From assembly GCF_000332115.1 (NCBI RefSeq), contig NC_020156.1, forward strand, positions 186,001-250,000: 64,000 nucleotides of DNA, in the 5' to 3' direction. The stretch comes from Nonlabens dokdonensis DSW-6 (GTDB lineage: Bacteria; Bacteroidota; Bacteroidia; Flavobacteriales; Flavobacteriaceae). Position numbers and translations under genes: made by a program. Under the pieces are notes generated by a model that was given only the letters and a program-made list of their open reading frames with translations, did no database searches and was not told the origin of the DNA. Positions 2,617 to 49,562 of the stretch are shown piece by piece (within the stretch, counting starts at the first letter, position 1; each line of letters starts with the position of its first letter).

Positions 2617-5600
2617 AGTTCCTTATTCTAGAAACCCATTGACGATAACTGCTGCCTTTTTGACCTAAGGAATCCCCTAAATATAGACGCTTTAAATCAT
2701 CCGCTAGAATACGCCAACTAACACCATCAACAAGCATATGATGCAAAGCAAAATAAATACGAGCACTACCATCTTCATAACCATGTAAATAACCAACCCG
2801 AAATAAAGGACCAGATTCTAAATCAAAATCACTTTGCCATTTAGTAAGTTCTAAATGAATCGCTTCTGCACTTAATAAACTAACATCTAAAGTCTTTAAC
2901 TCTGGTATTAATACCTCTGATTCATAACGCTGATTTAACTCAAATGAATCGTCTTTAAAATCATAACAGACTCGAAGCATATCATGATGAGAAACCAAAA
3001 CATCTAATATTGATCCCAACTTAATCACATCTAGTTCTGGTGTACGAACTAAAAAACTTTGATTCCAATGATTTGGAGAGACTAATAAATTAGCATTAGT
3101 ACGCTCTAAAAACCATTGCTGAATCGGTAATAAAGAAAAATCCCCTTCCAATATCCCTTGCTCTTGCTCAACCATATCGTCTAGATCCTTCGATTCTATC
3201 CTTACAATTAGCCTTGATATGCTCCTACTCTCAAAAATATCACGAACATTACAACTCAATCCTATTTGTCGAATACGACTTGATACCTGAATACTTAATA
3301 TAGAATCTCCTCCTATCCTGAAAAAATCATCCGTAATTCCTACCCGATCTAATCCTAATACTTCCTCCCATATTCTACACAAAACCTTCTCTGTTTCTGT
3401 CGTTGGAGCTACATACAAATCATCTGAAACGGTAAATTCTGGAGCTGGTAATCCTTTCTTATCCAACTTTCCATTAATCGTCAATGGAAAACTATCCATC
3501 TTAACTAAACTACTAGGAATCATATAATCTGGTAAGGCCAAAGATAGTGACTCTAATATAGATTCCTCTGATAGAGCTACATCTGAGACGTCTAATACAT
3601 AATACCCTACTAAATACTTAATTGTTCCTGTTTCTGTTTCGCGCCCTTTGGCTATAACACAACTCTGAGTGATTCCTTCAATACTCCTTAAAGCATACTC
3701 TATCTCGCCCAACTCAATGCGATACCCTCGTATCTTGACCTGATCGTCATTCCTACCTATATACTCTAAATTACCATCTGATAACCACCTAACTAAATCC
3801 CCTGTCCTATATAACCGCGTATACCCCTTCTCCCTATCTTCATCAGTAGCAAATGGATTTTCTATAAAACGCTCTTCTGTTAAATTTGGATTGTTCAAAT
3901 AACCCCTAGACAAACCTGCACCCCCAATATATAACTCGCCTATAACTCCGATAGGAACTACTTGCTTGAATTTGTCTAATACGTATGCTCTTTTGTTATT
4001 GATTAACCTCCCTATGGTATTAATTTTAGAGTTTTTATTCATTTCATAATAAGAACTTCCAACAATAGCTTCAGTTGGACCATACTCATTTATCAAATCT
4101 ACATCTGAAGATATATTTAGAACTTTAGCATCTGCTAATTCACCAGAGATTATAAGTGTATCTAATACCTCCAAATTATTCATTGTAACTAATAAAGCAG
4201 GTGGAATATAAGCTATATGAATATTATAATCTTTATATATCTTACTAGATAATCTATTATTAGTATTCGTAATAATTAAAGTGTTTGAAAAGCATAATGC
4301 ACCAAACACACATGATATTGAGGTATCAAAAGCATAAGAATGTAATAGATAAAATCTTTTCTTATTTGGTCTTTTTAAAAACTTATATTGAGAGTGAAGA
4401 TAGTTAACAACTCCATCATTATCAACCATTACTCCTTTAGGTTTCCCTGTGGTTCCTGAGGTATAAATTACATAAGCTAAATCTGTTGGACGACTATACC
4501 TCGGTAAATTAGATGGTTGCTCTTTCTGGTAGAAGCCTTCAATCAAATCTATATAAACAACTCTATCCTCTGGTAAGCTAGTAGATCTATCTTTAAATAC
4601 CCCGCGTTGACTCAATACCAATGCCGCCTCTGTATCCTCTAATATATAATCGATCCTATCTTGGGGATAATCTGGGTCTATTGGTACATAAGCACCGCCT
4701 GCCTTTAAGACCCCCAAAATTCCTATGATCATCTCCAAACTCCTATCCAAACATAAAGCTATCAAAGTATCGGGCTTTAAATCATTACCCGTTCTTTCCC
4801 TATAACTGCTTCGTATATGCCTGGCTAACTCATTACTACGCTCATTTAGCTCATTATAGGTTAACTCTTTATCCTCATAAACTAAAGCTATATTATCAGG
4901 CACATTTTCTACCTGAGATTCAAACATCTCATATATCGTCTTATCCCTTGGGTAATCCACATCGGTAGAATTCCATTCAAACAACAATTTATTTTGCTCA
5001 CCCAGTGTCAAGTAATTAATGGTTCCAACTTCCTTTTCTGGAAAAGTCAAAACCTCGGATAACAAACTCTTATAATGAGATATAAATCCTTGAATTACAT
5101 CTCTATCATATACATCTGAATTATAATCAATATTTAATAATAAATAATCACCAATCTCCTTAAAGGTAATATCAATATCGACTTTAGACATAATGAAGCC
5201 TTTATCTGATATTTGATTAACTTTTTCTTCTTCTAATTTATGACCAGTATCTTCTTCAAAAATATTTTCAATAGTTAACATAACATCAAAAATTGCATTT
5301 CGACTAATGTCTCTGGTTAAATTTAAATCCCTTACCAATTTATCAAATGGGTAACTCTGATATGAATATGCTTCTAATGTTGATTCTTTTATTTTTTTAA
5401 AAAAATCAATAAAACTCTCTTTAGGATCTACTTGATTTCTTAATACTAATGTATTTACATAAAATCCTATTTGATTTTCTAAATCAATATTCTCTCTTCC
5501 CGAAATAGGGGTTCCAATTATAATATCTTCTTCATTGGTATAGCGGTATAATAAAATTTTACATACAGCAAGTACTCCCATAAACAAGCTAGCATTATTC

Positions 5601-15497: not shown

Positions 15498-18400
15498 TTA
15501 AATAATAATTTTCTTCTTATCTGTTTGTTCTGAATTATCAACCCATAAAAAATTTTCAATATGGAGACCTAAACCTTTAATTGTTGAAGACCTGAAAAAC
15601 TCTTCCCAGCTGATTCTAATACCATATTCAACTTTTATTTCATTTAACAACGTATTAGCATTCAAACTATGACCACCCAACTCAAAGAAATTATCAGTAA
15701 CCCCAACTTTATCTAATCCTAATAACTCTTCCCAAATCTGTACAAGCTTCCTTTCTATTTCATTACTCGGAGCTACATATGCCCTATCACCAAGTCCTTC
15801 AACAGAGAGTTGTGATAAGGCTCTTCTATCAACCTTCCCGTTTGAAGTCAATGGCAATGCTTCCAACTCCATAAAATACTGGGGAATCATATAAGTTGGT
15901 AGATGAGAACGAAGTGATTCTTTTAATGTCGCTTGATCAATATTGTTCTCTGTCACAAGATAAGCAACCAAGTGCTTGTCTTGCCCCTTTTCTTGCGCAA
16001 CAATAACACTCGATACAACTCCGCTTTGCTTATTCAAAACATATTCTATCTCTCCCAGTTCTATTCGATATCCCCTAATCTTTACTTGATGGTCTTTCCT
16101 GCCTATAAACTCAATGTTCCCGTCAGGTAACCATCTCGCTAAATCACCCGTTTTGTACAAACGTTCACCTTCTATAAATGGATGGTCAATAAATTTCTCT
16201 GCGGTCAATTTTGGTTGGTTCAAATAGCCTCGTGATAAGCCAGCACCTGACACACATAGCTCTCCAATGACCCCTTTGGGCTGTAATGCATAATCTTCTG
16301 AAAGAATAAACACTTGAGTATTGTCTATTGGTACTCCAATTGAGATTGACCTACCAAAGGAGGCTTCACGTAACTTAAAATAGGTACTATAAGTAGTATC
16401 TTCAGATGGACCGTATAAATTATATACATCCATAGTGGATAGAGGTAATGCTTCTGCGAACTTTGAAGGAATAATTTCACCTGCCATGTTCAAAACTTTC
16501 ATAAAATTGAAATTTGTTCCTTGATCTAATAAAAATTGTACAACCGATGGTACGGTATTGATTAATACATTATTGTCTTCTTCAAGATATTGCGGAATTT
16601 GTGTTCCATTCTCTATTATTCGAACTTTCTTACCGGAACATAGAGGGTAAAACACTTCATATACCGAGAGATCAAAACTGAAAGAAGTTGTAAAATAGAC
16701 AATATCAACATCAGTCCTGTCGTATATGCTTTTAGACCATTGGATAAAGAATGCAGCACTCTTATGTTCAATCAACACCCCTTTAGGCTTACCTGTAGAA
16801 CCTGAGGTGTAGATTACATAAGCCAATTGATTGGAATCCAGTGTTACCTTTGGTGCTTTGGTAATTTTCTCTACGGACTGGAAAACCTCTAAATATGATG
16901 CATCAATAATGAATACACAAGCGCTATCTTCTTTTATAAAATCCTTTCGCTGCTCTGGATAAGTCGGGTCGATTGGAACATACGCTCCACCTGTCTTCAA
17001 AATGGCCAATAAACTCACTACCAACCATTCGCTTCTCTCCAACTCTACACCAATCAGTGCATCTTTCTCAATATCAATGCGAGATAATAAGTCGTTCGCC
17101 ATTGCATTGGACAAATCTTCTAACTCCTGATAGCTTAATTCTTTGCCTTCATAGATAATAGCCGTAGCTTCTGGTCTCTTTAAGACTTGTCCCCTAAATA
17201 AATCTATAATTGTTTTGTCTTCTGGATAATCTACATTGGTATCATTAAATGACTCTAACAATTCTATCTCCTCTGCTCTGGATAAAAGGGTTAAAGACTC
17301 TATACTCTCTTCCTGATCTTGTAAAGCCGAAGTTATGAATCGCTCTAAGTGACCGTATAATTGATCGATCAGTGAAACATCATAGATATCACTGTTATAT
17401 TCTAACTGTAAGTGGATGCCTTCAGTATCTTCTGTAAAAGAAAAGGTCATATCAAACTTACTTACTTCTCTTTCATTCTCATTGTAAGGAGTGATGTTCA
17501 ACCCTTCTAAAGTGATTGCCGTTTCTTGTTGGTTTTGTAACACTACCATCACATCAAATAGTGCTGATCTTGAAGTGTCTCTTTTTAGTTTGAGCTTCTC
17601 AACCAGTGAATCAAATGGATAGTCTTGATTCGTATATGCATCTAGTAAAGTCTCTTTTTGGATTTGTATTAATTCTTTGAAACTATTAACACCCTCAAAT
17701 TCAGTTCTGATGGCCAGTGTGTTTAGATACAATCCTACCTGGTTTTCTAACGCCTCATGGGAACGACCTGCAATCGGGGTTCCGATGATAATATCACTTT
17801 GATTCGTATATCTATATAAAAGTCCATTGACTCCTGCCAGTAGGGTCATATACAAAGTAACTCCTTGTCCTTTGCTGAACTGGTTGAGTTTATCACTCAA
17901 TTCTTTACCAAAACTATAGTGCTTGGTACTTCCATTGTAGGTCTTTACTAGAGGCCGTTTGCTGTAACTTGGCAGTTCCAATATCGGAATCTCTCCCTTG
18001 AACTTATCTAACCAATAATCTTCTTGCTTTTGAATAACATCTTGTTGCTCCTCACTTTGAATCCATATTACATAATCTTGGTATTGGATACTTAGTTTAG
18101 GAAGACTTACTTCTTCTCGATTGATTATATGCTTGTAGACCTGCATCAGTTCTTTAGTCAGTACTTCCATTGACCAGCCATCACCGATAATATGGTGAAT
18201 GGAGAATAATAAGTAGTATTCATCTGCTGATACTTGCAATAAATTTGCACTTAGCAGTGGTGCTTTACTTAGATTAAACTCTTCTTGGTAGAAGGATTCT
18301 ATTTTACTATCTACTTGCTCTTGCTGAATCTGTTCGTTTTCTAGTGTAAAGTTCAACTCTTCAGCTAGAAGTATCTTTTGATAGACTTCACCGTCCTTCT

Positions 18401-21400
18401 CCACAAAATACATTCGTAGACTATCGTGTCGCTCTATTAAAAAGCGGAAAGATGATGCCAAAGCATTAGCATCTAAACTTCCTTCCATCTTTAAAACTCC
18501 TGGAATGTTATAGGCTTGTCCGCCCCCTTCAAACTGGCTTAAAACCCAAAGTCTACGTTGTGAAGACGTTAATGAATAAAACTCTTGAATAGGAGCTCTC
18601 AGGATGGATTGGTAATTGGTATCGGTAATTTCTTTGCTAAGTCCTTTGATTGTTGGTAAAACAAAAACTTGTTTTACCGTTAGATTGCTTTGTAGTTCTT
18701 TGTTGATCTTGTTTATCAGTTGAGTTACTTTCAAACTATGACCTCCTAACTCAAAGAAATTATCAGTAACACCAACTTGTGCTACTCCCAAAACTTCTTG
18801 CCAGATTGAAGCCATTACTTTTTCTGTTTCTGTTTCTGGTGCGACATATACGCTTTCGCCCAAACCTTCTATCGAAACTTTTGGGAGTGCTTTTCTATCA
18901 ATCTTACCATTAGAAGTTAGTGGCAATGCTTCCAATTTCATAAAATACTGGGGAATCATATAAGTTGGTAGATGAGAACGAAGTGATTCTTTTAATGTCG
19001 CTTGATCAATATTACTCTCTGTCACAAGGTAAGCAACCAAGTGCTTGTCTTGCCCCTTTTCTTGCGCAACAACAACACTCGATACAACTCCGCTTTGCTT
19101 ATTCAAAACATATTCTATCTCTCCCAGTTCTATTCGATATCCCCTAATCTTTACTTGATGGTCTTTCCTGCCTATAAACTCAATATTCCCGTCAGGTAAC
19201 CATCTCGCTAAATCACCCGTTTTGTACAAACGTTCACCTTCTATAAATGGATGGTCAATAAATTTCTCTGCGGTCAATTTTGGTTGGTTCAAATAGCCTC
19301 GTGATAAGCCAGCACCTGACACACATAGCTCTCCAATGACCCCTTTGGGCTGTAATGCATAATTCTGTGATAATATATATGCTTTTGAATTTTCTATTGG
19401 TTTCCCTATAGGAATTATTCTAGAATCCTCTTCTTTAGTAATTCTATATGTAGTTGAGAAAGTAGTGTTTTCAGTCGGACCATATCCATTTATTATAGTC
19501 TTAGTATTGATGTCTATAATATTATTTATAAATTTTTGTGATACAACATCTCCGCCTACGGCCAAATTAGCTATACTATTAAATATACTGGAATCTTCAT
19601 TTATCAAATAATTAAACAAAGATGATATTACCCACATCGAGTTTACCTTATTCTTTAGTATTTCTTTTTTTAAAATTTTTGGAGACAAGATTTTCTCTTT
19701 TGAAATAATAACAAGACTACCTCCATTCATTAAACTTCCGTAATATTCTAGAGTACTCGCATCAAAAGAAACTGATCCTGTTGACAATATTCGACTTCTG
19801 CTATCAAGTGAAAAATATATTCCAGGTTTAATTAATCGAACCACATTCTTATGTTCAATCAACACCCCTTTAGGCTTACCTGTAGAACCTGAGGTGTAGA
19901 TTACATAAGCCAATTGATTGGAATCCAGTGTTACCTTTGGTGCTTTGGTAATTTTCTCTACGGACTGGAAAACCTCTAAATATGATGCATCAATAATGAA
20001 TACACAAGCGCTATCTTCTTTTATAAAATCCTTTCGCTGCTCTGGATAAGTCGGGTCGATTGGAACATACGCTCCACCTGTCTTCAAAATGGCCAATAAA
20101 CTCACTACCAACCATTCGCTTCTCTCCAACTCTACACCAATCAGTGCATCTTTCTCAATATCAATGCGAGATAATAAGTCGTTCGCCATTGCATTGGACA
20201 AATCTTCTAACTCCTGATAGCTTAATTCTTTGCCTTCATAGATAATAGCCGTAGCTTCTGGTCTCTTTAAGACTTGTCCCCTAAATAAATCTATAATTGT
20301 TTTGTCTTCTGGATAATCTACATTGGTATCATTAAATGACTCTAACAATTCTATCTCCTCTGCTCTGGATAAAAGGGTTAAAGACTCTATACTCTCTTCC
20401 TGATCTTGTAAAGCCGAAGTTATGAATCGCTCTAAGTGACCGTATAATTGATCGATCAGTGAAACATCATAGATATCACTGTTATATTCTAACTGTAAGT
20501 GGATGCCTTCAGTATCTTCTGTAAAAGAAAAGGTCATATCAAACTTACTTACTTCTCTTTCATTCTCATTGTAAGGAGTGATGTTCAACCCTTCTAAAGT
20601 GATTGCCGTTTCTTGTTGGTTTTGTAACACTACCATCACATCAAATAGTGCTGATCTTGAAGTGTCTCTTTTTAGTTTGAGCTTCTCAACCAGTGAATCA
20701 AATGGATAGTCTTGATTCGTATATGCATCTAGTAAAGTCTCTTTTTGGATTTGTATTAATTCTTTGAAACTATTAACACCCTCAAATTCAGTTCTGATGG
20801 CCAGTGTGTTTAGATACAATCCTACCTGGTTTTCTAACGCCTCATGGGAACGACCTGCAATCGGGGTTCCGATGATAATATCACTTTGATTCGTATATCT
20901 ATATAAAAGTCCATTGACTCCTGCCAGTAGGGTCATATACAAAGTAACTCCTTGTCCTTTGCTGAACTGGTTGAGTTTATCACTCAATTCTTTACCAAAA
21001 CTATAGTGCTTGGTACTTCCATTGTAGGTCTTTACTAGAGGCCGTTTGCTGTAACTTGGCAGTTCCAATATCGGAATCTCTCCCTTGAACTTATCTAACC
21101 AATAATCTTCTTGCTTTTGAATAACATCTTGTTGCTCCTCACTTTGAATCCATATTACATAATCTTGGTATTGGATACTTAGTTTAGGAAGACTTACTTC
21201 TTCTCGATTGATTATATGCTTGTAGACCTGCATCAGTTCTTTAGTCAGTACTTCCATTGACCAGCCATCACCGATAATATGGTGAATGGAGAATAATAAG
21301 TAGTATTCATCTGCTGATACTTGCAATAAATTTGCACTTAGCAGTGGTGCTTTACTTAGATTAAACTCTTCTTGGTAGAAGGATTCTATTTTACTATCTA

Positions 21401-21860
21401 CTTGCTCTTGCTGAATCTGTTCGTTTTCTAGTGTAAAGTTCAACTCTTCAGCTAGAAGTATCTTTTGATAGACTTCACCGTCCTTCTCCACAAAATACAT
21501 TCGTAGACTATCGTGTCGCTCTATTAAAAAGCGGAAAGATGATGCCAAAGCATTAGCATCTAAACTTCCTTCCATCTTTAAAACTCCTGGAATGTTATAG
21601 GCTTGTCCGCCCCCTTCAAACTGGCTTAAAACCCAAAGTCTACGTTGTGAAGACGTTAATGAATAAAACTCTTGAATAGGAGCTCTCAGGATGGATTGGT
21701 AATTGGTATGTATAAGTAACCTCAAAAGTTGTTGTTTTTCTGCTTTGATACGATTAATCAATTCAGGTGTTAAAGCTCCTTTTGGAGCAGCAACTTTAAG
21801 TTCACCATTTTCTTCTCGAAGTTGGACTCCGAGTTCACTAAGTTGAGTTATTAATTCCAA
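15498..21860 (-). CDS. Two-module NRPS (C-A-T-C-A-T)
   Basis: 2120 residues. A TubC-like docking domain (1-50) is followed by C (IHHIIGDGWS near 193), A, T (FFELGGHSLKV near 1037), C (same motif near 1226), A, T (FFELGGHSLNA near 2060). Pockets read as DALWAGGTFK (close to the valine code DAFWIGGTFK) and DLYNNALTYK (one change from DLFNNALTYK, which I recall as an alanine code). The start appears to be TTG at 21858-21860: the in-frame codons above it are ATA, ATA, TAA, and the docking domain begins at once. The two C domains and flanking A-domain parts are letter-identical in protein to each other and to modules of the upstream gene. Only the middle of each A domain differs. Confidence 0.93.
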   Translation of the reverse strand: MELITQLSELGVQLREENGELKVAAPKGALTPELINRIKAEKQQLLRLLIHTNYQSILRAPIQEFYSLTSSQRRLWVLSQFEGGGQAYNIPGVLKMEGSLDANALASSFRFLIERHDSLRMYFVEKDGEVYQKILLAEELNFTLENEQIQQEQVDSKIESFYQEEFNLSKAPLLSANLLQVSADEYYLLFSIHHIIGDGWSMEVLTKELMQVYKHIINREEVSLPKLSIQYQDYVIWIQSEEQQDVIQKQEDYWLDKFKGEIPILELPSYSKRPLVKTYNGSTKHYSFGKELSDKLNQFSKGQGVTLYMTLLAGVNGLLYRYTNQSDIIIGTPIAGRSHEALENQVGLYLNTLAIRTEFEGVNSFKELIQIQKETLLDAYTNQDYPFDSLVEKLKLKRDTSRSALFDVMVVLQNQQETAITLEGLNITPYNENEREVSKFDMTFSFTEDTEGIHLQLEYNSDIYDVSLIDQLYGHLERFITSALQDQEESIESLTLLSRAEEIELLESFNDTNVDYPEDKTIIDLFRGQVLKRPEATAIIYEGKELSYQELEDLSNAMANDLLSRIDIEKDALIGVELERSEWLVVSLLAILKTGGAYVPIDPTYPEQRKDFIKEDSACVFIIDASYLEVFQSVEKITKAPKVTLDSNQLAYVIYTSGSTGKPKGVLIEHKNVVRLIKPGIYFSLDSRSRILSTGSVSFDASTLEYYGSLMNGGSLVIISKEKILSPKILKKEILKNKVNSMWVISSLFNYLINEDSSIFNSIANLAVGGDVVSQKFINNIIDINTKTIINGYGPTENTTFSTTYRITKEEDSRIIPIGKPIENSKAYILSQNYALQPKGVIGELCVSGAGLSRGYLNQPKLTAEKFIDHPFIEGERLYKTGDLARWLPDGNIEFIGRKDHQVKIRGYRIELGEIEYVLNKQSGVVSSVVVAQEKGQDKHLVAYLVTESNIDQATLKESLRSHLPTYMIPQYFMKLEALPLTSNGKIDRKALPKVSIEGLGESVYVAPETETEKVMASIWQEVLGVAQVGVTDNFFELGGHSLKVTQLINKINKELQSNLTVKQVFVLPTIKGLSKEITDTNYQSILRAPIQEFYSLTSSQRRLWVLSQFEGGGQAYNIPGVLKMEGSLDANALASSFRFLIERHDSLRMYFVEKDGEVYQKILLAEELNFTLENEQIQQEQVDSKIESFYQEEFNLSKAPLLSANLLQVSADEYYLLFSIHHIIGDGWSMEVLTKELMQVYKHIINREEVSLPKLSIQYQDYVIWIQSEEQQDVIQKQEDYWLDKFKGEIPILELPSYSKRPLVKTYNGSTKHYSFGKELSDKLNQFSKGQGVTLYMTLLAGVNGLLYRYTNQSDIIIGTPIAGRSHEALENQVGLYLNTLAIRTEFEGVNSFKELIQIQKETLLDAYTNQDYPFDSLVEKLKLKRDTSRSALFDVMVVLQNQQETAITLEGLNITPYNENEREVSKFDMTFSFTEDTEGIHLQLEYNSDIYDVSLIDQLYGHLERFITSALQDQEESIESLTLLSRAEEIELLESFNDTNVDYPEDKTIIDLFRGQVLKRPEATAIIYEGKELSYQELEDLSNAMANDLLSRIDIEKDALIGVELERSEWLVVSLLAILKTGGAYVPIDPTYPEQRKDFIKEDSACVFIIDASYLEVFQSVEKITKAPKVTLDSNQLAYVIYTSGSTGKPKGVLIEHKSAAFFIQWSKSIYDRTDVDIVYFTTSFSFDLSVYEVFYPLCSGKKVRIIENGTQIPQYLEEDNNVLINTVPSVVQFLLDQGTNFNFMKVLNMAGEIIPSKFAEALPLSTMDVYNLYGPSEDTTYSTYFKLREASFGRSISIGVPIDNTQVFILSEDYALQPKGVIGELCVSGAGLSRGYLNQPKLTAEKFIDHPFIEGERLYKTGDLARWLPDGNIEFIGRKDHQVKIRGYRIELGEIEYVLNKQSGVVSSVIVAQEKGQDKHLVAYLVTENNIDQATLKESLRSHLPTYMIPQYFMELEALPLTSNGKVDRRALSQLSVEGLGDRAYVAPSNEIERKLVQIWEELLGLDKVGVTDNFFELGGHSLNANTLLNEIKVEYGIRISWEEFFRSSTIKGLGLHIENFLWVDNSEQTDKKKIII
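15838..16295 (-). repeat. A-domain C-terminal repeat, partial copy
   Basis: Codes for the end of an A domain (from LQPKGVIGELCVSGAG to about TSNGKVDRRAL) and matches the corresponding part of the long NRPS repeats with a few substitutions. The T domain after it differs from the other copies. Confidence 0.7.
16761..19375 (-). repeat. Long NRPS repeat (A-end, T, linker, C, A-start), copy 1
   Basis: About 2.6 kb running from the A3 region of one module (low coordinate) back to the region before A6 of the previous module (high coordinate). Near-identical to 26270-28855 and to most of 23392-25784. Outside these limits the A-domain middles are unrelated. Confidence 0.9.
19848..21710 (-). repeat. 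Long NRPS repeat, copy 2 (C and A-start only)
   Basis: Carries the C domain and N-terminal A part identical to copy 1. The identity stops at the docking domain, because this is the first module of its protein. Confidence 0.9.
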
Positions 21861-21876
21861 TATTATTTAAAAAGTT

Positions 21877-24800
21877 TTAGATGGTAATTTCTTCATAATC
21901 TCCTTCCATATTCACATTTGAGGAGAGCATTTTGATGACTTCAGATATGCTTTGTATTGTTGGCTTGTTAAAGAACATTTTCACTTGAAGTTCAATATCA
22001 AACTCTTGTTTGATTCGATTTTTTATGGCAATTATTTTTAAACTATGTCCACCGAGTTCAAAGAAATTATCTGTAACTCCTACTTTTTCTATTCCCAAAA
22101 TTTCTTGCCAGATAGCTGCTAATTTAAACTCTGTTTCATTATTCGGAGCCACATACTCTCTTTCTCCCAATCCTTCTATCGAAATTTGTGGTAGTGCTTT
22201 TCTATCGATCTTACCATTAGAAGTTAGTGGTAAGAATTCCAATTCCATAAAATACTGTGGAATCATGTATTCTGGAAGATGTGATCTAAGGGAAGCTTTA
22301 AGTTCACTTTGGTCTATTCTATCTTCTGCCACAACATAGGCAACCAAATAAGCATCTTCATTGTGATAAGAAATGATCACCACTGCTCGAGAAATGGTCA
22401 CTACATTTGTCAATGCGTGTTCTATCTCTCCCAATTCAATTCGATAGCCTCTTAGTTTTACCTGAGTATCTTTTCTTCCAATATACTCGATATCTCCATT
22501 AGGCAACCAACGAGCTAAATCACCAGATCTGTACAATCGTTCACCTTCTATAAATGGATGAGCAATGAATTTCTCTGAAGTGAGTTCGGCCTGGTTCAAA
22601 TAACCACGTGATAAGCCAGCTCCTGAAACGCACAATTCTCCAATAATTCCCGTAGGTTGTAACTTTAATGAGTTGTTGAGTATGTAGGTATTTAGTGTAG
22701 GGATTGCTTTTCCAATATTGCTTGCTTTATTTGCGATCTCTAGAGTTCCTATTTCTTTGTAGGTTACATGAACTGTGGTCTCCGTAATTCCGTACATATT
22801 GATCAGTTTACAATGCGGATATTCAAGATTCCAATCGGATAACATTTGTGGTGATAGTGCTTCACCACCAAAAATGACATAGCGCAAAGAATTTGCTTGA
22901 TTTTCTCCTAATAAGAACTCATTGAGTGCATAAAAACTTGATGGTGTCTGATTTAATACAGTGACTTCATGTGTGCGAATACAATTGGCAAATGCATCAA
23001 GATCTTTGGTTTGCTCCGAACCAATGATTACTAATCTTCCACCGAAGAGTAAGGCTCCGTACATCTCCCAAACAGAGAAGTCAAAGTTATATGCATGAAA
23101 CATGGTCCAAACATCAGTTTTATTAAAATCGAAAAGTGCTTTCTCGCTGAAAAATAAACGAACCACATTTTTATGCTCAATTATTACTCCCTTCGGTTGT
23201 CCAGTTGATCCTGAAGTAAAAATCGCGTAAGCCAATTGATTTGCATCTATTGTTACTTCTGGTGCTTTATTGACCTGTGTTACAGATTGGAATGTCTCCA
23301 AGTAATATTCATCAATGGTATAAATACAGGTCGCATCTTGTTTGATAAACTCCTTGCGTTGATCAGGATTAGATGGATCAATAGGAACATAAGCTCCACC
23401 TGTCTTCAAAATGGCCAATAAACTCACTACCAACCATTCGCTTCTCTCCAACTCTACACCAATCAGTGCATCTTTCTCAATATCAATGCGAGATAATAAG
23501 TCGTTCGCCATTGCATTGGACAAATCTTCTAACTCCTGATAGCTTAATTCTTTGCCTTCATAGATAATAGCCGTAGCTTCTGGTCTCTTTAAGACTTGTC
23601 CCCTAAATAAATCTATAATTGTTTTGTCTTCTGGATAATCTACATTGGTATCATTAAATGACTCTAACAATTCTATCTCCTCTGCTCTGGATAAAAGGGT
23701 TAAAGACTCTATACTCTCTTCCTGATCTTGTAAAGCCGAAGTTATGAATCGCTCTAAGTGACCGTATAATTGATCGATCAGTGAAACATCATAGATATCA
23801 CTGTTATATTCTAACTGTAAGTGGATGCCTTCAGTATCTTCTGTAAAAGAAAAGGTCATATCAAACTTACTTACTTCTCTTTCATTCTCATTGTAAGGAG
23901 TGATGTTCAACCCTTCTAAAGTGATTGCCGTTTCTTGTTGGTTTTGTAACACTACCATCACATCAAATAGTGCTGATCTTGAAGTGTCTCTTTTTAGTTT
24001 GAGCTTCTCAACCAGTGAATCAAATGGATAGTCTTGATTCGTATATGCATCTAGTAAAGTCTCTTTTTGGATTTGTATTAATTCTTTGAAACTATTAACA
24101 CCCTCAAATTCAGTTCTGATGGCCAGTGTGTTTAGATACAATCCTACCTGGTTTTCTAACGCCTCATGGGAACGACCTGCAATCGGGGTTCCGATGATAA
24201 TATCACTTTGATTCGTATATCTATATAAAAGTCCATTGACTCCTGCCAGTAGGGTCATATACAAAGTAACTCCTTGTCCTTTGCTGAACTGGTTGAGTTT
24301 ATCACTCAATTCTTTACCAAAACTATAGTGCTTGGTACTTCCATTGTAGGTCTTTACTAGAGGCCGTTTGCTGTAACTTGGCAGTTCCAATATCGGAATC
24401 TCTCCCTTGAACTTATCTAACCAATAATCTTCTTGCTTTTGAATAACATCTTGTTGCTCCTCACTTTGAATCCATATTACATAATCTTGGTATTGGATAC
24501 TTAGTTTAGGAAGACTTACTTCTTCTCGATTGATTATATGCTTGTAGACCTGCATCAGTTCTTTAGTCAGTACTTCCATTGACCAGCCATCACCGATAAT
24601 ATGGTGAATGGAGAATAATAAGTAGTATTCATCTGCTGATACTTGCAATAAATTTGCACTTAGCAGTGGTGCTTTACTTAGATTAAACTCTTCTTGGTAG
24701 AAGGATTCTATTTTACTATCTACTTGCTCTTGCTGAATCTGTTCGTTTTCTAGTGTAAAGTTCAACTCTTCAGCTAGAAGTATCTTTTGATAGACTTCAC

Positions 24801-27800
24801 CGTCCTTCTCCACAAAATACATTCGTAGACTATCGTGTCGCTCTATTAAAAAGCGGAAAGATGATGCCAAAGCATTAGCATCTAAACTTCCTTCCATCTT
24901 TAAAACTCCTGGAATGTTATAGGCTTGTCCGCCCCCTTCAAACTGGCTTAAAACCCAAAGTCTACGTTGTGAAGACGTTAATGAATAAAACTCTTGAATA
25001 GGAGCTCTCAGGATGGATTGGTAATTGGTATCGGTAATTTCTTTGCTAAGTCCTTTGATTGTTGGTAAAACAAAAACTTGTTTTACCGTTAGATTGCTTT
25101 GTAGTTCTTTGTTGATCTTGTTTATCAGTTGAGTTACTTTCAAACTATGACCTCCTAACTCAAAGAAATTATCAGTAACACCAACTTGTGCTACTCCCAA
25201 AACTTCTTGCCAGATTGAAGCCATTACTTTTTCTGTTTCTGTTTCTGGTGCGACATATACGCTTTCGCCCAAACCTTCTATCGAAACTTTTGGGAGTGCT
25301 TTTCTATCAATCTTACCATTAGAAGTTAGTGGCAATGCTTCCAATTTCATAAAATACTGGGGAATCATATAAGTTGGTAGATGAGAACGAAGTGATTCTT
25401 TTAATGTCGCTTGATCAATATTACTCTCTGTCACAAGGTAAGCAACCAAGTGCTTGTCTTGCCCCTTTTCTTGCGCAACAACAACACTCGATACAACTCC
25501 GCTTTGCTTATTCAAAACATATTCTATCTCTCCCAGTTCTATTCGATATCCCCTAATCTTTACTTGATGGTCTTTCCTGCCTATAAACTCAATATTCCCG
25601 TCAGGTAACCATCTCGCTAAATCACCCGTTTTGTACAAACGTTCACCTTCTATAAATGGATGGTCAATAAATTTCTCTGCGGTCAATTTTGGTTGGTTCA
25701 AATAGCCTCGTGATAAGCCAGCACCTGACACACATAGCTCTCCAATGACCCCTTTGGGCTGTAATGCATAATTCTGTGATAATATGCATACCTGTTCATT
25801 ATTTAGAGGTTTACCTATTGTGACTTTACTACCTTTTAATTCATGATTGAAAGTACTCCATATCGTTGTTTCAGTAGGTCCATAAACATTAATAAATTCG
25901 ATATGATCATTATTCATTAAAAATATATCCTTAAGATTTTGAGATAAAATTTCTCCGCCAACTAAAACTACTTTCAAACTTTTCGGGAATATTTTATTTA
26001 CTAATATGAGTTGTTCCAACCTAGAAGGAGTTAGTTGTAAGAAATCAATTTTATCTAACTCTAATTTATCCATAAAACTTACAGGATCCAGAAGTTGGGT
26101 TTCTTCAAATAAGACGATTTTTTTACCTAAACTTAAAACCCCTAATAATTCTATAACCGATATATCGAAAGTAAAACTAGTTGTGGCAGCTATACTGAAA
26201 ACATTCTTCATTTCAAAATTCTTATAAAAATTTGATATAAAGCTAGCTAAACTTTTATTCCTTATCATTACCCCTTTAGGCTTACCTGTAGAACCTGAGG
26301 TGTAGATTACATAAGCCAATTGATTGGAATCCAGTGTTACCTTTGGTGCTTTGGTAATTTTCTCTACGGACTGGAAAACCTCTAAATATGATGCATCAAT
26401 AATGAATACACAAGCGCTATCTTCTTTTATAAAATCCTTTCGCTGCTCTGGATAAGTCGGGTCGATTGGAACATACGCTCCACCTGTCTTCAAAATGGCC
26501 AATAAACTCACTACCAACCATTCGCTTCTCTCCAACTCTACACCAATCAGTGCATCTTTCTCAATATCAATGCGAGATAATAAGTCGTTCGCCATTGCAT
26601 TGGACAAATCTTCTAACTCCTGATAGCTTAATTCTTTGCCTTCATAGATAATAGCCGTAGCTTCTGGTCTCTTTAAGACTTGTCCCCTAAATAAATCTAT
26701 AATTGTTTTGTCTTCTGGATAATCTACATTGGTATCATTAAATGACTCTAACAATTCTATCTCCTCTGCTCTGGATAAAAGGGTTAAAGACTCTATACTC
26801 TCTTCCTGATCTTGTAAAGCCGAAGTTATGAATCGCTCTAAGTGACCGTATAATTGATCGATCAGTGAAACATCATAGATATCACTGTTATATTCTAACT
26901 GTAAGTGGATGCCTTCAGTATCTTCTGTAAAAGAAAAGGTCATATCAAACTTACTTACTTCTCTTTCATTCTCATTGTAAGGAGTGATGTTCAACCCTTC
27001 TAAAGTGATTGCCGTTTCTTGTTGGTTTTGTAACACTACCATCACATCAAATAGTGCTGATCTTGAAGTGTCTCTTTTTAGTTTGAGCTTCTCAACCAGT
27101 GAATCAAATGGATAGTCTTGATTCGTATATGCATCTAGTAAAGTCTCTTTTTGGATTTGTATTAATTCTTTGAAACTATTAACACCCTCAAATTCAGTTC
27201 TGATGGCCAGTGTGTTTAGATACAATCCTACCTGGTTTTCTAACGCCTCATGGGAACGACCTGCAATCGGGGTTCCGATGATAATATCACTTTGATTCGT
27301 ATATCTATATAAAAGTCCATTGACTCCTGCCAGTAGGGTCATATACAAAGTAACTCCTTGTCCTTTGCTGAACTGGTTGAGTTTATCACTCAATTCTTTA
27401 CCAAAACTATAGTGCTTGGTACTTCCATTGTAGGTCTTTACTAGAGGCCGTTTGCTGTAACTTGGCAGTTCCAATATCGGAATCTCTCCCTTGAACTTAT
27501 CTAACCAATAATCTTCTTGCTTTTGAATAACATCTTGTTGCTCCTCACTTTGAATCCATATTACATAATCTTGGTATTGGATACTTAGTTTAGGAAGACT
27601 TACTTCTTCTCGATTGATTATATGCTTGTAGACCTGCATCAGTTCTTTAGTCAGTACTTCCATTGACCAGCCATCACCGATAATATGGTGAATGGAGAAT
27701 AATAAGTAGTATTCATCTGCTGATACTTGCAATAAATTTGCACTTAGCAGTGGTGCTTTACTTAGATTAAACTCTTCTTGGTAGAAGGATTCTATTTTAC

Positions 27801-28026
27801 TATCTACTTGCTCTTGCTGAATCTGTTCGTTTTCTAGTGTAAAGTTCAACTCTTCAGCTAGAAGTATCTTTTGATAGACTTCACCGTCCTTCTCCACAAA
27901 ATACATTCGTAGACTATCGTGTCGCTCTATTAAAAAGCGGAAAGATGATGCCAAAGCATTAGCATCTAAACTTCCTTCCATCTTTAAAACTCCTGGAATG
28001 TTATAGGCTTGTCCCGCCCCCTTCAA
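21877..28026 (-). CDS. NRPS modules 3 and 4 (C-A-T-C-A-T), downstream part of a frameshifted gene
   Basis: 2049 residues in this frame; the first codons are a TTG inside a condensation domain already started in the upstream frame, so this is a continuation and not a separate gene. C domain (IHHIIGDGWS near 115), A domain with YTSGSTGKPKGV near 583, T near 955, C near 1148, A with FTSGSTGQPKGV near 1612, T with FFELGGHSLKI near 1992. The first pocket reads DIIQLGVIWK, glycine-like (two changes from DILQLGLIWK). The second reads DFWNIGMVHK, identical to the canonical threonine code. The C domains match those of the next gene letter for letter. Stop 17 bp before the TTG start of the next NRPS. 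Confidence 0.9.
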   Translation of the reverse strand: MKGAGQAYNIPGVLKMEGSLDANALASSFRFLIERHDSLRMYFVEKDGEVYQKILLAEELNFTLENEQIQQEQVDSKIESFYQEEFNLSKAPLLSANLLQVSADEYYLLFSIHHIIGDGWSMEVLTKELMQVYKHIINREEVSLPKLSIQYQDYVIWIQSEEQQDVIQKQEDYWLDKFKGEIPILELPSYSKRPLVKTYNGSTKHYSFGKELSDKLNQFSKGQGVTLYMTLLAGVNGLLYRYTNQSDIIIGTPIAGRSHEALENQVGLYLNTLAIRTEFEGVNSFKELIQIQKETLLDAYTNQDYPFDSLVEKLKLKRDTSRSALFDVMVVLQNQQETAITLEGLNITPYNENEREVSKFDMTFSFTEDTEGIHLQLEYNSDIYDVSLIDQLYGHLERFITSALQDQEESIESLTLLSRAEEIELLESFNDTNVDYPEDKTIIDLFRGQVLKRPEATAIIYEGKELSYQELEDLSNAMANDLLSRIDIEKDALIGVELERSEWLVVSLLAILKTGGAYVPIDPTYPEQRKDFIKEDSACVFIIDASYLEVFQSVEKITKAPKVTLDSNQLAYVIYTSGSTGKPKGVMIRNKSLASFISNFYKNFEMKNVFSIAATTSFTFDISVIELLGVLSLGKKIVLFEETQLLDPVSFMDKLELDKIDFLQLTPSRLEQLILVNKIFPKSLKVVLVGGEILSQNLKDIFLMNNDHIEFINVYGPTETTIWSTFNHELKGSKVTIGKPLNNEQVCILSQNYALQPKGVIGELCVSGAGLSRGYLNQPKLTAEKFIDHPFIEGERLYKTGDLARWLPDGNIEFIGRKDHQVKIRGYRIELGEIEYVLNKQSGVVSSVVVAQEKGQDKHLVAYLVTESNIDQATLKESLRSHLPTYMIPQYFMKLEALPLTSNGKIDRKALPKVSIEGLGESVYVAPETETEKVMASIWQEVLGVAQVGVTDNFFELGGHSLKVTQLINKINKELQSNLTVKQVFVLPTIKGLSKEITDTNYQSILRAPIQEFYSLTSSQRRLWVLSQFEGGGQAYNIPGVLKMEGSLDANALASSFRFLIERHDSLRMYFVEKDGEVYQKILLAEELNFTLENEQIQQEQVDSKIESFYQEEFNLSKAPLLSANLLQVSADEYYLLFSIHHIIGDGWSMEVLTKELMQVYKHIINREEVSLPKLSIQYQDYVIWIQSEEQQDVIQKQEDYWLDKFKGEIPILELPSYSKRPLVKTYNGSTKHYSFGKELSDKLNQFSKGQGVTLYMTLLAGVNGLLYRYTNQSDIIIGTPIAGRSHEALENQVGLYLNTLAIRTEFEGVNSFKELIQIQKETLLDAYTNQDYPFDSLVEKLKLKRDTSRSALFDVMVVLQNQQETAITLEGLNITPYNENEREVSKFDMTFSFTEDTEGIHLQLEYNSDIYDVSLIDQLYGHLERFITSALQDQEESIESLTLLSRAEEIELLESFNDTNVDYPEDKTIIDLFRGQVLKRPEATAIIYEGKELSYQELEDLSNAMANDLLSRIDIEKDALIGVELERSEWLVVSLLAILKTGGAYVPIDPSNPDQRKEFIKQDATCIYTIDEYYLETFQSVTQVNKAPEVTIDANQLAYAIFTSGSTGQPKGVIIEHKNVVRLFFSEKALFDFNKTDVWTMFHAYNFDFSVWEMYGALLFGGRLVIIGSEQTKDLDAFANCIRTHEVTVLNQTPSSFYALNEFLLGENQANSLRYVIFGGEALSPQMLSDWNLEYPHCKLINMYGITETTVHVTYKEIGTLEIANKASNIGKAIPTLNTYILNNSLKLQPTGIIGELCVSGAGLSRGYLNQAELTSEKFIAHPFIEGERLYRSGDLARWLPNGDIEYIGRKDTQVKLRGYRIELGEIEHALTNVVTISRAVVIISYHNEDAYLVAYVVAEDRIDQSELKASLRSHLPEYMIPQYFMELEFLPLTSNGKIDRKALPQISIEGLGEREYVAPNNETEFKLAAIWQEILGIEKVGVTDNFFELGGHSLKIIAIKNRIKQEFDIELQVKMFFNKPTIQSISEVIKMLSSNVNMEGDYEEITI
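23392..25784 (-). repeat. Long NRPS repeat, copy 3
   Basis: Same unit as copy 1. The low-coordinate end is shorter: the stretch 23185-23391 up to the A3 motif is diverged (PSNPDQRKEF against PTYPEQRKDF), so the exchanged block here is larger than in the other modules. Confidence 0.9.
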
Positions 28027-28855
28027 ACTGGCTTAAAACCCAAAGTCTACGTTGTGAAGACGTTAATGAATAAAACTCTTGAATAGGAGCTCTCAGGATG
28101 GATTGGTAATTGGTATCGGTAATTTCTTTGCTAAGTCCTTTGATTGTTGGTAAAACAAAAACTTGTTTTACCGTTAGATTGCTTTGTAGTTCTTTGTTGA
28201 TCTTGTTTATCAGTTGAGTTACTTTCAAACTATGACCTCCTAACTCAAAGAAATTATCAGTAACACCAACTTGTGCTACTCCCAAAACTTCTTGCCAGAT
28301 TGAAGCCATTACTTTTTCTGTTTCTGTTTCTGGTGCGACATATACGCTTTCGCCCAAACCTTCTATCGAAACTTTTGGGAGTGCTTTTCTATCAATCTTA
28401 CCATTAGAAGTTAGTGGCAATGCTTCCAATTTCATAAAATACTGGGGAATCATATAAGTTGGTAGATGAGAACGAAGTGATTCTTTTAATGTCGCTTGAT
28501 CAATATTACTCTCTGTCACAAGGTAAGCAACCAAGTGCTTGTCTTGCCCCTTTTCTTGCGCAACAACAACACTCGATACAACTCCGCTTTGCTTATTCAA
28601 AACATATTCTATCTCTCCCAGTTCTATTCGATATCCCCTAATCTTTACTTGATGGTCTTTCCTGCCTATAAACTCAATATTCCCGTCAGGTAACCATCTC
28701 GCTAAATCACCCGTTTTGTACAAACGTTCACCTTCTATAAATGGATGGTCAATAAATTTCTCTGCGGTCAATTTTGGTTGGTTCAAATAGCCTCGTGATA
28801 AGCCAGCACCTGACACACATAGCTCTCCAATGACCCCTTTGGGCTGTAATGCATT
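26270..28855 (-). repeat. Long NRPS repeat, copy 4 (contains the frameshift)
   Basis: Same unit as copy 1. It differs by the extra C near 28014 that breaks the reading frame. Confidence 0.9.
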
Positions 28856-31800
28856 GCTAAAAGAATCTAAAATATAAGCTTGATAATTATTCAGTGGTGT
28901 TCCAATTGGAATGTAAGGAGTTTTGATAGCTTTAAGACTATCAATTTTAAGATTCGTTGCACAAATAGTACTTTCTGTTGGACCATAAGCATTGATGATT
29001 TCTACATTATTTTTATGATACCATTCAATTACTAATGGTTGAATTCCTTCAACCCCAATTAATATCTTTTTTAAATAAATATTATCATAAGTAGCCAATT
29101 GATTGGATACTTCTTTCAGGTGCATTGGATGAATATAACAATGTGAGATTTTGTTCTGGTATAGAAAACCCGTATATTCCTTCGGATTATAAACAATTTC
29201 TTCATTTGGAATAAACAATGTGCTTCCAGAAGTTATAGAACCCATAATCTCAAATACAGAGACATCAAAAATAGTATTACATGTAAGTGAGGTATTTGAT
29301 TTTTCAAGTTGATAATCGTCTAAGAAGTTCACTAAACTCTTATGCTCAATCATTACACCTTTTGATTGACCTGTAGAACCCGAAGTATAAATGATATAAG
29401 CAAGTTGATTAGATGTAATTTCATTTTCTAATACTTCCGAATTTTTATTAGATGATTGAAAATTTTCTAAGAAATTTTCGTCAATAACAATTTCGCAATT
29501 GCTATCCTCTTTGATATATTCAATTCGTTTATTTGGAAATAACGGATCAATAGATAGATAAGCACATCCAGCCTTGAGTACAGCAAGCATACTAATCACA
29601 ATCCATTCACTTCGGTTTAATAAAATTCCGATTATGTTTTCTTTTTCTACTGTTCCTTGCGATATAATAAAATTTGCTATTTCATTGGAGCGTTCATCTA
29701 ATTCTCTATAAGTAATTTTTCGATTTTCATACACTACGGCTATGGTATCAGCAGTCTTTTCAACCTGAATCTTGAATAAGTCAACAACGGTTTTATTTCG
29801 TATTGGTTCTGCTGTGTTATTAAAATCTATTAAAAGCTCTTTTTCTTGCTCCTGATTCATACACGGAATCTGCTTATAAGAAACTTTTGGAGTGGTAACC
29901 ATCGCTTCTAAAATCTCAAAATAAGAATCAAGCATTTGCCACATGGTATCTTCTGCATATATATCACTATTGTATTCCCATTCCACAATAATAGTTCTGT
30001 CTGTTTCCTCCATACCTTCCAGCAATGCTTGCTCGTAAGGCGTAACTACTACTACATTGATATCAAACTTGGCTGATAAATTATGTGAATCTAAAATTTC
30101 AAGATCAATATCTGGTAAGAACAAATTTCTTGAAGGTGTGTTCATGAAACTAAAGATGTACTGGAACAATGGCATTAACCCTAAACTCCTATTTGGAGAA
30201 ACATGCTCTACTACTTTTCCAAATGGTGTATCTTCATAGGTATAGGCTTCAAAGCATGTTTCTTTTACTTTTTCAAGAGCATCCGCAAAAGTATCTGAAT
30301 CTTTAAGTTTTGTTCTTAAGGTAATGGTATTGATTACCATTCCTAATATATTCTCAATGGATGCCAATCGTCTGTTAGCTACAGCAGTTCCAACGCAGAT
30401 ATCTGTTTCATTACTAAATCGACTTAAGGTCAGTTTAAAGGCTGTCATCATGGTAATAAACAAAGTAGAACAACTGGTTTTACTGTAATCACGTATTTTG
30501 TCAGATAACTCAGCATCTATCGTTTTAATTAATAATTTTCCATTTCCTGTGATTAGTTTCGGTCTTTTTGCTTTTTGAGGCAATGGCAATACAGGAATAT
30601 GACCTTCTAACTTTTGCTTCCAAAAGCTCATGTGTTGTGTCAACCTTTGATCATCAAAAAAGGCTTTCTGCCAATAAGAGAAATCTTTAAACTGTAATTC
30701 TGGGACTGTCACTTGATAGTTTTCATCTTCCATTAATTCAGTATAAATATCAATATACTCTCTCAACAAAATTCCTTGTGTCCAACCATCATGGATTAAG
30801 TGATGCTGACACAGCACTAATACTTGATCTTCTTCGGATCTTTTTAGAATGGTAATTCGCAACAATGGCCCTTTTTCTAAATCAAAAAACGTGTTTCCTT
30901 CTTCAAAAATGAATTCCTTTAATGCTTTATCCTGTTCTTCTAGAGATAAATGCACTAAAGAGATGAGAGGAACTTGGAATTCAAATGGGTCTAAAATTTT
31001 CTGATAAGGAATACCATCAATTACAGGAAAAACAGTTCTTAAAACTTCATGCTTTTCTGTCAAAAGTGTAAATGCTCTTCGGATTCGCTGAATATTCAAC
31101 TTTCCTGTCATTTTAATGGCTCTTGGAACGTAGTATGACTTGTTCTCTTGGTTAAGCTGATCCAAGAACCACAATCGCTCTTGCGGATAGGATAATGGAT
31201 ATAACTCTTGTTCGGGAGCCTTTCCTAATTGGAATATGTTGGAAACCTCTTTTGATTCTATTATTTTAACAGTTTCATGTATTGTTGGAGATTCATAAAA
31301 TTCTTTAAGTGAAATATCTTGCTTTCTGGTCTCCCTTATAATCCCAATAAATTGGTTCGCAAGTAAAGAATGACCGCCTAACTCAAAAAAGTTTGTATAA
31401 ATACCGACTTTGCCAATATTTAAAAGCACTTTCCAAATATCTGCTATTTCATTTTCTATTGTTGTTGAAGGAAGAATAATTTTCTTCTTTATAGAAGAAT
31501 TCTTAGGTAAGGGTAAACGTTTAATATCAACTTTTCCACTTGTGTTCAGTGGTAATTTATCAAGAGTCACTATATGATTTGGAATCATATATGAAGGTAG
31601 TATCTTCTTGATTTTGTTTATCAAATAACTATTGTCTAGCTCATTATTACCAGCTAAATAAGCTATAAGTGAGGGTAAACCTTGTAACTCTTTTATTGCA
31701 ACATGACAATTCTTAATTGAGGTATCAATAGATTTTATTATTTGTTCAATTTCACTGACTTCGATTCGATATCCTCTAAAGTTTAGTTGCGTATCTTTTC

Positions 31801-34273: not shown

Positions 34274-34788
34274 ATAATAGATACTTTTGATAAAACATAA
34301 GAAGGTATCGTTGCCATTATACTCTGCTGCAATGAGTCAATTCTAACAATAATTTTATTGTGGTTGTCTGCTTTAATAATTTCACAATCCAATCCGTTTA
34401 GAGGATCATAAGTATTTTTTTTAATTTCACCGATTTTAGGAAGCACCACATTAGTCTCTATATCTGAAATGTTCTTATCTCCAGTAAGTAACTCTATTTG
34501 GTTGGTTTCTTTTTCAGTTACCTTAGCATATTCTTTTCTAAATCGGATATATGCACAAGCCCCATTAACAGATAGTGCTTTATGGAATTCTAAAGAAGAA
34601 TTAATATTTACAAAAACATAAGATGAAAATAGAGGTTTAAGAATTGTTTTCTTTCTATCACTCCACTGTTTTACTGTTGTAATTTGTGGTAAAAAGGATT
34701 CTAAAGAAATATCTTTTAACGACTCATATACTTTTTTCTCCCAACGAGATTTTACATACAGAGCATACCAACCAATGGCAAAATTCAT
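34270..34788 (-). CDS. Specialised NusG-like transcription antiterminator (UpxY/LoaP type)
   Basis: 172 residues. The N terminus WYALYVKSRWEKKVYESL is the start of a NusG N-terminal (NGN) domain, with LKPLFSSYVFVNI further on. The C-terminal third (GEIKKNTYDPLNGLDCEII onwards) is a KOW-like domain. Paralogues of NusG placed at the head of very long operons (UpxY for capsules, LoaP for polyketides, RfaH) keep RNA polymerase from terminating early. This gene is the first of the NRPS/PKS operon and overlaps the first NRPS start by 4 bp, so I infer it is dedicated to this more than 34-kb transcript. It could in principle act on other operons too. Confidence 0.88.
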   Translation of the reverse strand: MNFAIGWYALYVKSRWEKKVYESLKDISLESFLPQITTVKQWSDRKKTILKPLFSSYVFVNINSSLEFHKALSVNGACAYIRFRKEYAKVTEKETNQIELLTGDKNISDIETNVVLPKIGEIKKNTYDPLNGLDCEIIKADNHNKIIVRIDSLQQSIMATIPSYVLSKVSII

Positions 34789-49411: not shown

Positions 49412-49547
49412 CTAATGGCTAATGGCTAATGGCTAATGGCTAATGGCTAATGGCTAATGGCTAATGGCTAATGGCTAATGGCTAATGGCTAATGGCTAAT
49501 GGCTAATGGCTAATGGCTAATGGCTAATGGCTAATGGCTAATGGCTA
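49411..49547. repeat. 7-bp tandem repeat array (GCTAATG)n
   Basis: About 19.5 uninterrupted perfect copies of GCTAATG, beginning with the last base of the lipoprotein stop codon. Every reading frame soon meets TAA, so it is not coding. A terminator lies directly after it. Confidence 0.97.
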
Positions 49548-49562
49548 AAATAATTTTTGAGC

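Follow-up and report, generated by a model that had tools for sequence, protein, structure and literature searches.

Eleven NRPS modules of a single operon in Nonlabens dokdonensis DSW-6 (M3-M6 and seven modules of a second family) share scaffolds that diverge by zero to ~2% within their common tracts, and carry 10 distinct A-domain cores. The explanation we favor, with a probability of about 0.6, is that whole A domains or parts of them were exchanged and that gene conversion then repainted their flanks up to the core, where the sequences cannot be aligned. The homogenization of the scaffolds by gene conversion is in itself well supported: the pattern is observed, and from it we infer the act of conversion.

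The window, i.e. the whole 64,000-nt stretch of DNA that was analyzed, comprises bases 186001-250000 of a single-contig 3.91-Mb genome, labelled G000 in our comparisons. Its NRPS genes lie on the minus strand in one ~71-kb run (genome 149.4-220.3 kb) that reaches beyond the window start, and every one of the 25 Condensation matches in the genome falls at 150-220 kb according to Pfam, which also places repeated C, A and T domains in open frames, the organization of a multimodular type I NRPS. We numbered the modules from the start of transcription, so that ORF1 contains M1 and M2, ORF2 contains M3 and M4, and ORF3 contains M5 and M6:

34270..34788, minus strand: NusG-like gene heading the operon (Pfam PF02357, E 5e-16)
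28001..34273, minus strand: ORF1, with M1, M2 and the beginning of M3 (two each of the Pfam domains Condensation, AMP-binding and PP-binding)
21877..28026, minus strand: ORF2, with M3 and M4
15498..21860, minus strand: ORF3, with a TubC docking domain, M5 and M6
28001-28032, 2573-2622 and 1787-1804: breaks in the NRPS reading frames (intact sister copies exist for the first two, which lie in repeats)

The NusG-like protein at the head of this 71-kb operon presumably resembles the specialized antiterminators of long operons. ORF1 and ORF2 seem to be two parts of a single protein, interrupted by a frame break at ~28.00-28.03 kb, because the Kordia ortholog P0133 reads through that place. The operon has five such ORF breaks, three within the window (~1.80, 2.57-2.62 and 28.00-28.03 kb) and two outside it, and four of the five are located inside repeats; the exception, at ~1.80 kb, may be an ordinary gene boundary. 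Consensus errors in the repeats, which at an identity of at least 97% over at least 150 nt cover 47% of the operon, are the likely cause of the breaks, true lesions being the alternative. The A domain of the module at 11026-15495 contains a luciferase-like monooxygenase domain (PF00296, E 7e-40), inserted, by our reading, between the A4 and A5 regions, and a module of genome G239 (C4:17237) has start letters similar to those of this module.

The sequence-only reading of this DNA had claimed that four C domains with the adjoining N-terminal parts of their A domains are letter-identical in protein from AYNIPGV to about TGGAYVPIDP, and three of them as far as TGKPKGV. Both statements are borne out, as a single 517-aa string is common to all four copies (M3-M6), and M3, M5 and M6 are the same over 580 aa. 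At the DNA level, M3, M5 and M6 differ at 0 of 1551 nt, and M4 has five differences over the same stretch, all within its final 20 nt; compared with M5, it shows none across ~1590 nt and then 67 within the 208 nt preceding the end of motif A3. DNA identity is all-or-none. Since synonymous sites are identical as well, neither chance nor protein-level selection explains it. Among the tracts recovered by self-comparison, 16760-18622 equals 19847-21709 at 100% over 1863 nt, 16777-19360 matches 26270-28854 at 99.96% over 2585 nt with one gap (the longest tract), and 16926-19376 matches 23335-25785 at 99.4% over 2451 nt. The scaffold copies (domain numbers being those of the modules) are:

26270..28854, minus strand: end of the M2 A domain, T2, linker, C3 and N-part of the M3 A domain (99.96% to 16777-19360)
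23393..25785, minus strand: end of the M3 A domain, T3, linker, C4 and start of the M4 A domain (diverging from 23392 to 23185, with 67 differences in 208 nt against M5)
19847..21709, minus strand: linker, C5 and N-part of the M5 A domain (100% to 16760-18622)
16760..19376, minus strand: end of the M5 A domain, T5, linker, C6 and N-part of the M6 A domain (from the self-comparison tracts)

The further claim that A-domain ends, T domains and linkers are nearly identical is fully true for three of the five modules, M2, M3 and M5 (0 of 780 nt differ). It fails for M4, in which 260 of 762 positions differ, and applies to M6 in part, with 166 of 765 positions differing (both compared position by position, no gaps): the first 440 nt of the M6 A end are 98.4% identical to the scaffold, and sharing runs to about A6+413 (positions are in nt relative to the end of motif A3 or the start of motif A6). 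High DNA identity does stop at the limits of the A cores, as had been noted; the cores are not unrelated, though, but homologous, with 27-39% amino acid identity. The breakpoints had been placed after A3 and before A6, and we find the joins at just these places: the upstream limit of identity lies at -1 to +16 nt from the end of A3 for pairs among M3, M5 and M6 (-208 nt for M4), and the downstream limit at -27 to -43 nt from the start of A6 for pairs among M2, M3 and M5, i.e. 9-14 residues before A6.

The cores enclosed by these joins (end of A3 to start of A6) are:

28829..29353, minus strand: M2 core, resident, code DVF..AIC (93% to the DT35 MAG, 85% to Kordia)
25744..26268, minus strand: M3 core, Gly-like (50% to its best outside relative among 199 genomes)
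22642..23184, minus strand: M4 core, Thr-like (61% to its best outside relative among 199 genomes)
19335..19862, minus strand: M5 core, Val-like (best relative among the matches listed ~54%)
16266..16775, minus strand: M6 core, Ala-like (73% to module 3 of P0133 from Kordia sp. SMS9)

We read the pocket codes from the sequence by eye, using a pocket-code table, and obtained the same assignments as the sequence-only reading: Val for M5, Ala for M6, Gly for M3 and Thr for M4. Donors were sought in 199 genomes of the family, N. dokdonensis included, for each of the M3, M4, M5 and M6 cores and in 397 genomes for M2; a set of 5.8 billion proteins was searched with the M5, M6 and M2 cores, with candidates limited by length, and we examined the best 120 of 5351 matches for M5, the best 120 of 2987 for M6 and all 70 for M2. 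No donor above 61% was found for the M3, M4 and M5 cores in the 199 genomes and, for M5, also among the best 120 of 5351 proteins; A-core exchange would lead one to expect an identifiable donor, and the best relatives of these three reach 50, 61 and ~54%, the first two from the 199 genomes only. In the genome itself (E<=1e-20 for M3-M6 and 1e-30 for M2, scoring 8-18 of the 22-25 candidates from a first look), no core-like sequence outside the NRPS operon was seen among the matches listed for the five cores. Two of the 22 other genomes of the genus matched the scaffold, over only ~32 nt, in a DNA search of a kind that misses diverged relatives.

We built trees from 48 modules, each having 580 aa or more upstream. 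In the C-domain tree, M3-M6 form one group with a support of 100/100, adjoined by Kordia and DT35 modules; M3 stands slightly apart, its segment beginning at the ORF break. Five modules of G042, a genome of another genus, are near-identical in this tree, as are, at the protein level, two Tenacibaculum modules. In the core tree, on the other hand, M3, M4, M5 and M6 stand apart, each nearest to cores of other genera (M3 with G042_3389906, M4 with G216_298579 and M6 with Kordia), and their union into one clade is rejected with a log-likelihood lower by 228 and a p-AU of ~1e-60. Since the C tree groups M3-M6 and the core tree splits them, core and scaffold have different histories. The modules of one cluster group against their orthologs, synonymous sites included, as is characteristic of concerted evolution, and the conflict between core and scaffold trees is the one that A-core exchange leads one to expect.

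A second scaffold family in the same operon shows the same arrangement. It consists of seven modules, with A3 ends at genome positions 190429, 185897, 181351, 176806, 173263, 168676 and 165490, that share tracts of the A N-part and A end at 97-100% and have six distinct cores, 33-50% identical. Within the window, this family is represented by:

4430..4977, minus strand: A N-part, A3-548 to A3 (>99% at full length to three modules beyond the window; with another three the match extends just to A3-116)
3941..4429, minus strand: core of the window module (36-42% to the other six)
2941..3985, minus strand: A end and T scaffold (>99% to three modules, those with A3 ends at genome positions 173263, 181351 and 185897)

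Three of the seven modules (176806, 173263 and 165490) have an N-part that switches sub-type at A3-116, and in several the A scaffold is common and the C domain is not, identity beginning near A3-548. The cores of the modules at 181351 and 185897, which lie before the window start, are 94% alike and differ mainly in their first 74 nt, i.e. they form a mosaic core.

The pattern recurs elsewhere. G042 harbors large NRPS loci with shared scaffolds and different cores, and Tenacibaculum sp. 190524A02b has, at the protein level, two near-identical C domains with differing cores. It is not universal, as NRPS modules of G216 and G239 contain no tract of at least 97% over at least 150 nt. In the module comparisons, 6 of 54 modules were dropped for having less than 400 aa upstream, and 13 further A3 matches lacking an A6 match were left unused. 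Tract ends cluster in G000 at A3-555..-548, A3-116, A3-2..+25 and A6-49..-26, and in G042 at A3-570..-548 and -513, A3+2..+17, and A6+26..+30 or -48, with further ends elsewhere too, e.g. at A6+220 and A6+319. The A3 join is therefore almost the same in both genera, and the A6 joins differ by up to ~80 nt. Three zones contain 51 of 131 and 61 of 114 tract ends, for which a binomial p is descriptive only, since the zones were chosen post hoc and the ends are non-independent. The same frame break occurs near a G run in three near-identical C domains of G042 (C1:3366530-3366590, 3377325-3377385 and 3395093-3395153), perhaps as a systematic sequencing error.

Orthologs of the first protein bear on the question of which piece moved. 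They are P0133 of Kordia sp. SMS9, L031/P0240 of DT35 (a draft MAG, 81% complete, in 610 contigs), P0152 of Tenacibaculum sp. 190524A02b, P0166, P0168 and P0238. For M2, identity between N. dokdonensis and DT35 is 92/91/93% in the C domain, A N-part and core, and drops to 86/68/81% past A6, where DT35 and Kordia agree at 95/80/88% and N. dokdonensis and Kordia at 85/77/81%; at the DNA level, identity with DT35 goes from 91% before this border to 74% after it, and is 82.5% in the following C domain. Because DT35 and Kordia agree past A6, the N. dokdonensis flank is the odd one. Judged by these identities, the core would have stayed in place and the flank been overwritten by the family scaffold; this is the sole junction polarized by relatives, and its direction is given by identity values rather than a tree test. 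At the end of protein 1, in its last module, Kordia module 3 and M4 have matching tails (T 78%), and the core is of Ala type in Kordia and of Thr type in M4. Identity of the A-sub there is 52% for M4 and 39-43% for M3, M5 and M6, and the replaced piece may therefore exceed the core.

At position 2, the A2-type A domain is present in N. dokdonensis, Kordia, DT35, P0166 and P0238, and a Leu-type domain in Tenacibaculum and P0168, with the C domain kept and identity declining from near the C-A junction onward. In P0238, the A domain of module 3 is a copy of that of module 2, with 100% identity between about -125 and +350 aa relative to the A3 end, the C domains being at 33%. G042 has two module pairs with a whole A domain in common (3438518/3410673 and 3446007/3418566), sharing A3-558 to A6+319 and A3-548 to A6+484, and C domains mostly at 50-70% DNA identity. 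In DT35, two A2-type modules share the A N-part and core (85 and 92%) but not the A end (58%). Duplicated specificities thus appear mostly as whole A domains, in DT35 as A N-part plus core, and in none of these sequences as a core only. The sequence-only reading had proposed that new specificities came in by exchange of the A core, with gene conversion keeping the rest uniform. Its second half agrees with the 100/100 support in the C tree and the rejection of a common core clade; its first, core-only import, gains no support from the M2 junction, where the flank appears to have been replaced, or from the extent of the copies.

Accounting for these observations, conversion between modules would keep the scaffolds uniform within a genome, and the cores would differ as members of old lineages common to other Flavobacteriaceae. 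New specificities probably entered through exchange of whole or partial A domains, after which conversion would repaint whatever still aligns on either side (C domain, N-part and end of the A domain, and T) and halt where cores cease to align, at the end of motif A3 and 9-14 residues before A6. What is visible is a hybrid A domain, its scaffold local and its pocket subdomain descended from elsewhere. M3 and M5, fully repainted, M6, in which repainting reaches ~A6+413, and M4, in which it stops at A3-208, may represent stages of this process, import presumably having preceded repainting at M3, M5 and M6. The hybrid domains are presumably active. The cores may be sedentary and the scaffolds mobile, and we suggest tentatively, at somewhat less than even odds, that in this operon, and possibly in many other cases, the A-core transfers of the literature are what scaffold conversion left behind after import of whole or partial A domains.

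The same end picture for M3 and M5 could possibly arise from direct A-core exchange, in which recently duplicated modules have only their pocket subdomain replaced by double crossovers near A3 and A6, a process that counts against our view also in having published cases. We think it rather unlikely here; on either path, hybrid A domains with known joins result. The core limits do cluster near A3 and A6 in both G000 and G042, but tract ends at these motifs could follow homology alone, and their place is therefore silent on which piece moved. The M3 and M5 cores are AT-rich (GC 0.28-0.29, compared with 0.37-0.40 in the scaffold), as imported pieces might be, but the resident M2 core, with a GC of 0.301, is nearly as AT-rich, and base composition is therefore no mark of import. 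Moreover, the resident M2 core with its derived flank, the resolved copies, which are whole A domains or A N-part plus core, and the lack of near donors for the M3, M4 and M5 cores within the searched sets argue against direct core exchange. On the other side, the DT35 modules, with A N-part and core in common but not the A end, show that what is shared can be less than a whole A domain. Many cores on constant scaffolds would also be produced by a dedicated device that shuffles cores from silent donors, comparable to antigen variation, but this is highly improbable, as the matches listed for five cores in the genome all lie within the NRPS operon.

Could the repeats have been collapsed or copied by an assembler or polisher? 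Unpolished repeats are typical of long-read assemblies, the ORF breaks inside repeats and the break common to three G042 copies point in this direction, and polishing that mixed copies could overstate their identity. However, every copy has a different core and hence a separate place, and Tenacibaculum sp. 190524A02b also has its near-identical C domains under different cores. P0239 (1917 aa, on a 1.63-Mb contig), identical to M1-M2 in sequence, ends inside a repeat and seems to come from another assembly that was interrupted by a genuine repeat. An artefact is accordingly very improbable, if marginally less so than the shuffling device. Strong purifying selection on the C domains and A flanks in the absence of gene conversion, for which one could cite the catalytic motifs in the flanks, is hardly credible: synonymous sites are identical within the genome, the same C domains are only ~82% identical to those of Kordia and 81% to those of DT35, and the G216 and G239 modules lack such tracts. 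Copies inside the genome have no synonymous difference at all while genomes clearly differ from one another, and this contrast refutes selection alone.

The hormaomycin subdomain pattern and subdomain swaps were reportedly described by Cruesemann in 2013 and Kries in 2015. In GrsA numbering, M5 and M6 separate at the upstream join right after LIEHK, at ~K205 by motif count, and the downstream join lies ~10 residues beyond the equivalent of I352, by motif count rather than structural alignment. The boundaries of subdomain swaps are quoted in PMC7486941 (Calcott 2020) as K205-A322 and T221-I352 of GrsA. The same paper reports recombination hotspots in pyoverdine NRPSs between C and A, between A2 and A4 and from near A5 on, comparable to the zones of the present operon close to A3-548, at A3 and ahead of A6, and states that partial-A swaps in PvdD yielded no visible product; unlike those swaps, the present hybrids sit in a natural operon and are known from sequence alone.

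In Baunach et al. 2021 (PMC8097286), the A core, as here, differs in descent from its flanks, with breaks near conserved motifs and the A-sub and C-A linker mostly kept. Its cases come from cyanobacteria, firmicutes and actinobacteria through comparison of related clusters, the term 'Bacteroid' being absent from the text, whereas here 11 modules of one operon carry 10 distinct cores on shared scaffolds. Medema et al. 2014 (PMC4256081) likewise describe domains within a cluster as more alike than orthologous ones and name gene conversion as the cause of concerted assembly-line evolution; there it is described per domain, while here the A domain splits into a homogenized shell and an exempt core. 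In the wollamide/desotamide case of Booth 2022 (PMC9205934), a segment from A2 to A5/A6 was, as here, exchanged within a genome, in a single event with a named donor, in contrast to the many modules here with donors not found in the searched sets. According to these papers (PMC8097286, PMC7486941, PMC9205934 and PMC4256081), A-core recombination, hotspots flanking the pocket and concerted evolution are already published. Among the open-access papers listed (15 of 39 and 2 of 2), none deals, by title and abstract, with a flavobacterial NRPS core/scaffold pattern; PMC9248904 names Kordia as cluster-rich, and the word 'recombination' is absent from its text. The operon is thus an unusually clean new example of an already known evolutionary record.

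Where NRPS A domains tolerate cutting and rejoining is an open engineering question. This operon, together with the loci in another genus, provides numerous naturally occurring hybrid A domains whose joins, known to the base, recur in three zones: the end of A3, a short stretch about A6 and, on the C-A side, the vicinity of A3-548. Since the near-identical scaffolds serve as their own control, the permitted joins are directly testable. The operon also raises the question of whether cores or scaffolds are the moving part.

GC-biased conversion, an unproven lead, would predict a GC-richer multi-copy scaffold. GC at fourfold sites in G000 is 0.26 in scaffold with at least two extra copies, 0.173 with one and 0.206 with none, and in G042 0.237-0.245 in multi-copy scaffold versus 0.207 with none; in a block test counting each repeat once the difference is not significant, circular-shift controls reaching it in 834 and 669 of 5000 cases. 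Fourfold GC is higher in the flank than in the core in 12 of 13 homogenized modules of G000 and 8 of 10 of G042, the flank copies being non-independent, and in 0/2 (G000), 2/2 (G042), 6/9 (G216) and 3/5 (G239) of the non-homogenized ones. Over 13 non-independent modules (window 15498-34273 and genome 149-192 kb), it amounts to 0.33 in the scaffold and 0.17 in the core. Elsewhere in the window, at 49411-49548, a 7-base unit is repeated in 19.7 perfect copies, starting at the stop end of the ORF at 48596-49411.
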